Positions 43,462-45,472 of a stretch of 64,000 nucleotides of DNA are shown piece after piece (the stretch's first letter is position 1; each line of letters starts with the position of its first letter). The DNA comes from Spirulina sp. SIO3F2 (lineage in GTDB: Bacteria > Cyanobacteriota > Cyanobacteriia > Cyanobacteriales > Spirulinaceae): contig JAAHHN010000002.1 in the NCBI GenBank assembly GCA_010672165.1, positions 23,335-87,334 of the forward strand, given 5' to 3'. A program made the position numbers and the translations under genes. A model generated the notes under the pieces. It was not told the origin of the DNA. It searched no databases and was given only the letters and a program-made list of their open reading frames with translations.

Positions 43462-44706
43462 ATGACCCAATCCCAACAACGTCCCCCCGCTCCACCCCCC
43501 GGACGACGTCCCCCTGCTCCACCCCCCGGACGACGACCTCCCGCTCCGCCACCCAAAGCTACTGCCACACCTAAAGCGCGAGCTGGGTCTCCCCCCCGTT
43601 TACCCAACGGCAAAGTTGCACCAGAGCATACCAATCGCCCTGCTGGTCAGCCAAGCTGTGTTGAGCTGCTCAAGAGATCACACGAAGAGGGCTATTCTGA
43701 TGTCCATTTGGGGGTTGGCGAAGTCCCACGAGTGCGCGATCGTGGCGAGATGCTAGAGCTAGACTATCCTAAAACCGATACCGCCACCTTCTGGAGCTGG
43801 ATGCAAGAGCTGGTGACAGAGCAGGAGATGCAGCAGTTCAAAGACACAAAAGAACTCGACACGGCGACGCAGTACGATTTCTCCCGGATACGAATCAACG
43901 TTTTTGATGCGTTGTTAGGCCCATCAATTGTGATGCGGTTGATTCCCAACAAGATCCTCACCTTAGAGCAACTCCGTTCACCGGAGGTCTTTAAAGATAT
44001 TTCTGATGCGCACAAAGGTCTAGTGCTGGTGACCGGACCCACAGGGTCGGGAAAATCGACCACGATGGCAGCGATGATTGACTACATCAACAAAGAGCAT
44101 GCCAAACATATCATTACTATTGAAGACCCGATTGAATTTGTCCATCAAAGCCGAAAATCGTTGATTAAGCACCGAGAAGTGGGAACCCATACGTTGCTAT
44201 TTGATAATGCCCTGAAGGCGGCACTCCGGGAAGATCCGGATCTGATTTTGGTGGGGGAAATGCGCGATCGCGGCACGGTGAACACTGCTCTCAAAGCTGC
44301 TCAAACAGGTCACTTGGTAATGGGAACGTTGCACACGAATAGCGCAGTCAAAACCATTGACCGAATTTTGAATCTCTATTCTGCCGAAGAGCAAGATGCA
44401 ATGCAGATTGCAATTGCTGAGTCCTTGGTGGCGATTATTGCTCAGGGTCTGTGCCGAACGACAGATGGTAAACGGGCCGCTTTTCATGACATTTTGATCA
44501 ATACTGAGACGATGAAGGAATACATCGCTAAGGGCCGATACGAGGAAATGCATGAATTGATGCAAACCAGTGAATACGATGGCATGATCACCATGAATAT
44601 GTCACTCTATAACCTCTATGAAGAGGGGCGTATTACCGAAGAGACGGCATTAGAAAAATCGCCCACCCCCAACGAGATGGCTCAAATGCTACGGGGACGC
44701 ATCTAA
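43462..44706 (+). CDS. pilT: Type IV pilus retraction ATPase (PilT family) with Pro-rich N-terminus
   Basis: A hexameric ATPase that powers pilus retraction and twitching motility. The 414-residue product has Walker A GPTGSGKSTT near residue 195, the Asp box IITIEDPIEFVH, Walker B LILVGEMRD and the His box TGHLVMGTLHTNSA. The N-terminal ~55 residues are unusual: a repeat RRPPAPPPGRRPPAPPP followed by a basic linker, which canonical PilT lacks. Cyanobacteria carry several PilT paralogues, and which one this is cannot be settled by sequence alone. The KaiB-fold gene follows after 10 bp, so the two form an operon. Confidence 0.9.
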   Translation: MTQSQQRPPAPPPGRRPPAPPPGRRPPAPPPKATATPKARAGSPPRLPNGKVAPEHTNRPAGQPSCVELLKRSHEEGYSDVHLGVGEVPRVRDRGEMLELDYPKTDTATFWSWMQELVTEQEMQQFKDTKELDTATQYDFSRIRINVFDALLGPSIVMRLIPNKILTLEQLRSPEVFKDISDAHKGLVLVTGPTGSGKSTTMAAMIDYINKEHAKHIITIEDPIEFVHQSRKSLIKHREVGTHTLLFDNALKAALREDPDLILVGEMRDRGTVNTALKAAQTGHLVMGTLHTNSAVKTIDRILNLYSAEEQDAMQIAIAESLVAIIAQGLCRTTDGKRAAFHDILINTETMKEYIAKGRYEEMHELMQTSEYDGMITMNMSLYNLYEEGRITEETALEKSPTPNEMAQMLRGRI

Positions 44707-44716
44707 GCATCGGGAT

Positions 44717-45472
44717 GTGAGCAGCCCAAGCCACAACCATGATGTATTTAAGGGGATCGCCTTGCTAACGCCAGGGGGAGATGTGCTTTATGCGATTGAT
44801 GCCAACCGGCAAGGCCGCTGGCATGTGCATTTATGTACTGCCATACAAACCCTATTACATTTGCCTGAGCCTCCTTTTTTCTTGATGCCGGCCTACAGTG
44901 CAACTCTCGATCGCTGGCGCGATCCGCGCACAGGTCAACTGCACACCTATGCTGAACTCTATCCGCCTCTACGGGCTTATCCAACCCTACTGAATGCGAT
45001 TTTCAGCACCCCTGGACAGATTTGGACTGAAATTCCCTGGTACCGATCAAACACTGACCCCCTCGTCATTGAACAATATCGTGAGCGCTTTGCCCCTCTT
45101 TGGGATTATCATGCTTGGCTCTTATCTTATGATGATTGGCAGAGTCTTCAACAGACGTCCACACCTGTTAGTCCCCCCTTGAACACAGCAACGTCATCGA
45201 CTTCGGTTACTAACTATGTCTTGCGAGTATTTGTTTCAGGACATAACCGAGTAATGGAAGGACACCTGCTTCGTCTACACCAGTTTCTAGAAACGCATTT
45301 CACCCAGCCCTATACTCTCAAGGTGGTGGATATTCTCAAAAATCCTGAACTGGCTGAAGCCGATCAGGTCACAGCAACACCAACTTTAGTACGCATTACA
45401 CCCCAACCGACTCGGCGGATCGTGGGGACGTTTAGTGATGCAAATCAACTGCTGGATTTGTTGCTAGTCTAG
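44717..45472 (+). CDS. Protein with N-terminal unknown domain and C-terminal KaiB-like domain
   Basis: The 251-residue product ends in a KaiB/SasA-sensor-like thioredoxin fold: NYVLRVFVSGHNRVMEGHLL, then HFTQPYTLKVVDILKNPELA, TATPTLVRITPQPTRRIVG and the terminal helix. This is the region by which SasA-type proteins bind KaiC. The N-terminal ~150 residues are not a known kinase domain; they start as a mixed alpha/beta domain (GIALLTPGGDVLYAIDANRQ), rich in Trp, Tyr and Pro. The start is a GTG at 44717, 10 bp after the pilT stop. Its TAG stop (45470-45472) lies within the end of element R1-B. A clock or pilus regulatory role is inference from domain and neighbour. Confidence 0.75.
   Translation: MSSPSHNHDVFKGIALLTPGGDVLYAIDANRQGRWHVHLCTAIQTLLHLPEPPFFLMPAYSATLDRWRDPRTGQLHTYAELYPPLRAYPTLLNAIFSTPGQIWTEIPWYRSNTDPLVIEQYRERFAPLWDYHAWLLSYDDWQSLQQTSTPVSPPLNTATSSTSVTNYVLRVFVSGHNRVMEGHLLRLHQFLETHFTQPYTLKVVDILKNPELAEADQVTATPTLVRITPQPTRRIVGTFSDANQLLDLLLV

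Follow-up and report, generated by a model that had tools for sequence, protein, structure and literature searches.

An elongated KaiB protein (KaiB-4) encoded behind pilT2 in cyanobacteria: a conserved gene pair and its retention after loss of pilus motors

Analysis of a 64,000-nucleotide stretch of DNA from Spirulina sp. SIO3F2 (the window) led to a gene directly behind pilT2 which encodes a member of the elongated KaiB or KaiB-4 family, a group of proteins already in the literature. PilT2 is encoded directly upstream, on the same strand and in the same order, in 90 of the 99 surveyed genomes that carry KaiB-4, and the linkage of the two genes is therefore beyond chance. In addition, KaiB-4 seems to do something for which PilT2 and pilus motors are not required, since some genomes that have lost both keep an intact kaiB4 that evolves under purifying selection. 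The features of the locus, in window coordinates, are:

43,462-44,706, forward strand: pilT2, a second PilT/PilU-type retraction ATPase of 414 amino acids (TIGR01420, 457 bits)
43,483-43,596, forward strand: proline-rich N-terminal repeats of PilT2 (RPPAPPPG-type), read in the sequence
44,707-44,716, forward strand: intergenic gap of 10 bp between the pilT2 stop codon and the GTG of kaiB4, from the sequence
44,717-45,472, forward strand: KaiB-4 ('elongated KaiB') gene, 251 amino acids (open reading frame, Pfam KaiB, match to 8UBH)
44,747-45,130, forward strand: N-terminal domain, residues 11-138 (alignment; model with pLDDT 88.6 and pTM 0.83)
45,131-45,208, forward strand: variable linker, residues 139-164, of low model confidence (alignment and model)
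45,209-45,463, forward strand: KaiB domain, residues 165-249, modelled as fold-switched and thioredoxin-like, lacking the C-terminal tail of clock KaiB (Pfam and model)
45,365-45,373, forward strand: Q217-V218-T219, aligned with K58-I59-L60 of KaiB (T. elongatus numbering), which are published KaiC-contact positions (PMC6378743, PMC8059507)

The reading frame runs from a GTG start codon at 44,717 to a stop codon ending at 45,472 and encodes 251 residues. A sequence-only reading of the window had described this gene as lying 10 bp behind pilT, and its product as having a KaiB fold at the C-terminus and an N-terminus that is neither kinase nor KaiB. The description proved right on all points: residues 170-246 match the Pfam KaiB family (E 1.2e-20, 73 bits against a cut-off of 27), and the N-terminus matched no family in Pfam or NCBIfam. 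No terminator-like site was seen on the same strand in the 10-bp gap; a common transcript of pilT2 and kaiB4 is likely in the window.

The upstream neighbour belongs to the PilT/PilU family (NCBIfam TIGR01420, 457 bits against a cut-off of 319). The other PilT of this genome, which is PilT1-like and 39% identical to the window PilT, is encoded on contig C448 beside a PilB-like ATPase. According to a review from 2025, a proline-rich N-terminus marks PilT2, and the function of this protein is still without explanation (PMC12288463). With its proline-rich N-terminal repeats, and with the other PilT adjoining a PilB-like ATPase, the gene before kaiB4 is assigned by its sequence to PilT2, apart from the pilBTC locus. 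Upstream of pilT2 and divergent from it, a gene for a small protein of about 124 amino acids, which looks membrane-like by eye and has no Pfam match, is present in 47 of the 80 named loci (L053:1224-1721 is one instance); a homologue of this protein is encoded near kaiABC in genome G024 (L168:4707-5084).

Conservation of the pair was surveyed in a 386-genome sample of the phylum, the loci of relatives being collected with an alignment query of contigs. Two-domain KaiB-4 was found in 99 of these genomes. The two genes are at most 300 bp apart in 79 of the 90 paired genomes; the median distance to the first conserved residue is 115 bp and the maximum 943 bp, and such long gaps make a common transcript less sure outside the window. 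In the remaining nine genomes PilT2 is either encoded elsewhere (five) or was not found (four), and in one further genome the two genes lie about 17 kb apart. Counted by locus, pilT stands upstream in 69 of the 80 named loci, and four of the others have less than 600 bp of upstream sequence. Conservation across cyanobacteria, which the sequence-only reading had put forward as a check, is thus stronger than could be foreseen. Because Thermosynechococcus (G118, L148) also carries the pair, its age within the phylum is considerable. Genes farther out are the same in some of the loci only, and Synechocystis-like genomes possess PilT2 and no KaiB-4. Broken or N-terminally truncated copies of kaiB4 occur at L187:4616-5325 (G007), L184:2849-3274 (G033) and L186:79-642 (G038); intact pilT2 adjoins the damaged gene in G007 and G033, and the frame remains open over just the KaiB portion in G033 and in G038.

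Pilus motors have been lost naturally within genus g54, where no intact PilT or PilB-type ATPase was found in a sub-clade of three genomes (G173, G208 and G291); PilT2 is present in a fourth genome of the genus, G169. At the corresponding loci (L164, L171 and L170, respectively) a pilT2 remnant lies upstream of kaiB4, with a stop codon common to all three genomes. The kaiB4 gene is broken in G173 and intact in G208 and G291. Comparison of the two intact copies gave a dN/dS of 0.136, from the small counts of 29 synonymous and 16 nonsynonymous changes, as compared to a median of 0.106 (5-95%: 0.036-0.233) for 196 similarly diverged, non-independent pairs. All three genomes have kept KaiC. Additionally, genomes G084 and G256 have KaiB-4 and PilT1 but no PilT2.

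The KaiB domain of the window protein was modelled by AlphaFold in the fold-switched, thioredoxin-like state, and the model aligns with the fold-switched structures 5jwr (Z 14.1), 4kun (Z 13.6), 1t4y (Z 11.2) and 8ubh (Z 11.1). It is in the fold-switched state that KaiB binds KaiC (PMC6378743). The window protein scores under the NCBIfam cut-offs for clock KaiB (71.4 against 145.3 bits and 73 against 110 bits), and the tail residues G89, D91 and Y94 of the clock-KaiB ground state are not kept in the KaiB-4 domains. A tree of the domains sets clock KaiB apart with a support of 1.0; it fixes neither the root nor the monophyly of KaiB-4.

Residues A15, V47, I59 and L60 of KaiB are given as KaiC-contact positions in one review (PMC8059507), and K58 is highlighted for this contact in another (PMC6378743). 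These positions were compared in 83 KaiB-4 domains, 20 KaiBs and 20 SasA domains. All five are invariant in the KaiBs, and the SasA domains keep the basic class at position 58 (R/K) and the aliphatic class at position 60 (V/I). The KaiB-4 domains mostly have S or A at position 15 and V or I at positions 47 and 59, which are thus kept or conservative, but carry Q or H at position 58 in 77 of 83 cases and S, T or A at position 60 in 80 of 83. The contact residues on which the sequence-only reading had made its proposal depend are therefore preserved in part, with A15, V47 and I59 on one side and K58 and L60 on the other. Since both CI binders keep the residue class at the two positions that are replaced family-wide in KaiB-4, the changes would lower the likelihood of canonical docking to KaiC. 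KaiB-4 may nonetheless bind KaiC, with three of the five positions kept or conservatively changed and KaiC present in 97 of the 99 genomes. Among further residues, K43, which is important in the contact with KaiA, is kept in KaiB-4, A41 is changed to T, and H29, P39, E52, Q58 and S60 are common family-specific residues.

The N-terminal domain of about 130 residues is restricted to cyanobacteria and defines the KaiB-4 family. Among 83 diverse sequences it has 16 invariant columns (K12, T18-P19, D22, W35-H36, L39, L49, P53, F55-L56, A62, L92, F96, W103 and W129), and modelled alone it reached a confident pLDDT of 88.6 and a pTM of 0.83. Throughout the 386 genomes it occurs in single copy, always preceding KaiB, and neither stand-alone copies nor other fusions were found among them; the 100th genome with this domain is G173, with its decayed copy. 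Pfam searches with the domain of 83 relatives gave nothing above noise, and the best match of its profile among PDB sequences, stathmin at E 0.017, was taken as noise as well. Structure comparisons of the model stayed within the chance range, the best hits being an ADF-type domain in Foldseek (E 0.039, TM 0.36) and gelsolin segment 1 in VIA-align (Z 4.4). A profilin- or longin-like domain was considered from the strand order and rejected, as no search supported it.

To our knowledge almost all cyanobacteria possess KaiC, and finding it together with KaiB-4 therefore says little. One genome, G349, seems to have lost its clock naturally: its kaiABC genes are decayed (L181:9032-9909), with kaiA reduced to pieces that lie in two frames, and with the end portion of kaiC coming directly after the first 13 codons of kaiB, all on one contig between an intact histidine kinase gene and ruvA. 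No other KaiC was found in G349, where pilT2 and kaiB4 form an intact pair. What is left of kaiC has hardly changed at the protein level, for which reason the loss looks recent, and the genome, considered as proof of KaiC-independence, was downgraded to weak evidence. In G034, kaiA-kaiB-kaiC is followed at a distance of 1.7 kb by kaiB4, encoded on the same strand (L183:8066-13401), with pilT2 on another contig and a pentapeptide-repeat-like open reading frame between kaiABC and kaiB4, which is interrupted by assembly gaps only. Such linkage is not the rule; it is close in this one genome, and elsewhere kaiB4 and kaiABC are mostly distant or on other contigs. The kaiB3 gene of Cyanothece 51142 (cce_0435), which to judge from its locus tag stands about eleven genes away from kaiABC, is probably a further member of the KaiB-4 family, as the peptides HHLLET and VSATPT are encoded at matching places by the primers published for it. 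Its transcript oscillates in constant light, as do many Cyanothece transcripts (PMC4431719). The Spirulina genome itself has a standalone KaiB adjoining KaiC on contig C113 and a SasA-type match on C102. A large histidine-kinase protein is encoded divergently beside kaiABC in four genomes (L168:5363-8113, L169:10472-13291, L183:13616-16456 and L181:10092-12875), the copy in G024 having HisKA, HATPase and receiver domains.

The anatomy of KaiB-4, its family and its pairing with PilT2 are shown by the data. For the mechanism, the explanation that we tentatively prefer is that KaiB-4 is a fixed thioredoxin-like adaptor which has been retargeted, is co-regulated with PilT2 and has at least one role independent of pili. 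It would not be an oscillator part; its KaiB module, permanently fold-switched and retargeted, would have lost canonical KaiC docking and would carry the N-terminal domain to the target. Co-expression with PilT2 would follow from one of its tasks concerning pilus behaviour, and at least one further target would have nothing to do with pili. In its favour are the pairing in 90 of 99 genomes, the single N-terminal domain always ahead of KaiB, the agreement of the model with 8UBH on the thioredoxin-like state, the missing tail residues, the changes at positions 58 and 60 together with the common family-specific residues, and the purifying selection on kaiB4 where pilT2 is dead and no PilT/PilB-type motor was found. 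Against this stand the conservative retention of three of the five contact positions together with the presence of KaiC in nearly all genomes, and the decay of kaiB4 along with pilT2 in G173, as a purely pilus-related function predicts. We consider it unlikely that KaiB-4 is a KaiB-type adaptor outside the clock whose KaiB fold has shifted from the KaiC ring to a different hexameric RecA-like ATPase, namely PilT2 and, in genomes without pilus motors, one more such ATPase, with the N-terminal domain as an effector of new fold. The main rival to the retargeted adaptor, which we regard as doubtful, is an adaptor of clock output that would bind the CI ring of KaiC in the manner of SasA, compete there with KaiB and SasA, and signal through its N-terminal domain to PilT2 and other outputs. 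The KaiC-binding ability of fold-switched KaiB (PMC6378743), the residues kept or conservatively changed at positions 15, 47 and 59, the retained K43, the presence of KaiC in 97 of 99 genomes and its persistence even in the motor-less sub-clade, the kaiB4 gene behind kaiABC in G034 and the oscillation of the probable KaiB-4 cce_0435 (PMC4431719) all agree with it. However, almost every KaiB-4 has other residues in place of K58 and L60, whose class is conserved in both CI binders, and the pair is intact in G349, where kaiABC is decayed and KaiC was not found elsewhere, if only since a seemingly recent loss; the co-occurrence with a near-universal KaiC carries little weight here.

If KaiB-4 were instead a dedicated regulator, binding the PilT2 hexamer (a RecA-like ring like KaiC CI) and gating retraction, the very strong and old gene pairing and the death of both genes in one motor-less genome would be expected. 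The loss data conflict with such a role and make it improbable: in two genomes kaiB4 has outlived PilT2, being intact and subject to purifying selection, two others hold it with PilT1 and without PilT2, and Synechocystis-like genomes have PilT2 without KaiB-4. It is very unlikely that pilT2 and kaiB4 adjoin by descent only, as neutral relics, even though the intergenic distances leave a common transcript not assured everywhere and the genes are apart in five genomes and some 17 kb apart in another; order and strand are kept in 90 of 99 genomes from many families, while the next neighbours are only partly conserved. The direct connection between clock and pilus that the sequence-only reading had proposed is not supported in that form. 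With two contact positions changed and the gene kept where PilT2 is dead and no PilT/PilB-type motor is left, KaiB-4 is not simply a clock-to-pilus wire, and the Synechocystis-like genomes and the apparently recent kaiABC decay beside an intact pair in G349 point the same way.

As one old unit, pilT2 and kaiB4 give a lead on the functions of both genes, and the natural losses of PilT2 and pilus motors, or of kaiABC, with KaiB-4 retained limit which simple models suffice. With a solved fold-switched relative and two altered clock-contact positions, KaiB-4 is also useful for understanding how KaiB folds acquire partners.

Earlier reports place the window protein among known relatives. Schmelling et al. 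(2017, PMC5520375) described 'elongated KaiB' proteins with a conserved N-terminal extension of about 150 residues, found only in cyanobacteria, and Wayment-Steele et al. (2023, PMC10808063) reported for KaiB-4 the NMR structure of the KaiB-TV-4 domain from Thermosynechococcus (8UBH), a monomer in the fold-switched state. In the parts of these papers available, the N-terminal extension is on record as uncharacterised (PMC5520375, PMC10808063) and the function of elongated KaiB as open (PMC10808063); the same parts contain no mention of linkage to pilT2, of changes at the contact positions or of retention without pilus motors. No treatment of KaiB together with pilT2 was found in the literature searched, which had most subscription journals outside its scope; the pairing appears to be an unreported genomic context for a known family. 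The window protein agrees with the family in architecture, in its length of about 250 amino acids and in an N-terminal extension of about 150 amino acids, without structural difference. The best solved sequence match of its KaiB domain is 8ubh (E 6e-20), and this KaiB-TV-4 domain is the one encoded right after pilT2 in Thermosynechococcus genome G118.

Compared with clock KaiB (KaiB1), the KaiB domain of the window protein is about 43% identical and keeps K43, P63 and P72, but the protein has an extra N-terminal domain, lacks the G89/D91/Y94 tail, differs at K58 and L60 and scores under the clock-KaiB cut-offs. With the N-terminal sensor domain of SasA, which is permanently thioredoxin-like, it shares a module of KaiB fold (Z 11.2 to 1t4y) that is presumably fixed in this state in KaiB-4 too. 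SasA differs in having its own contact residues (D15, R/K58, L59 and V/I60), unlike those of KaiB-4, and no Pfam kinase family matched the window protein, which thus gave no sign of the histidine kinase domain of SasA. The KaiB of Legionella pneumophila (Lpp1115, 4kun), said to play no part in circadian rhythms (PMC10808063), was likewise crystallised in the fold-switched state (Z 13.6), but is a single-domain protein with 91 residues in the solved chain and 29% identity.
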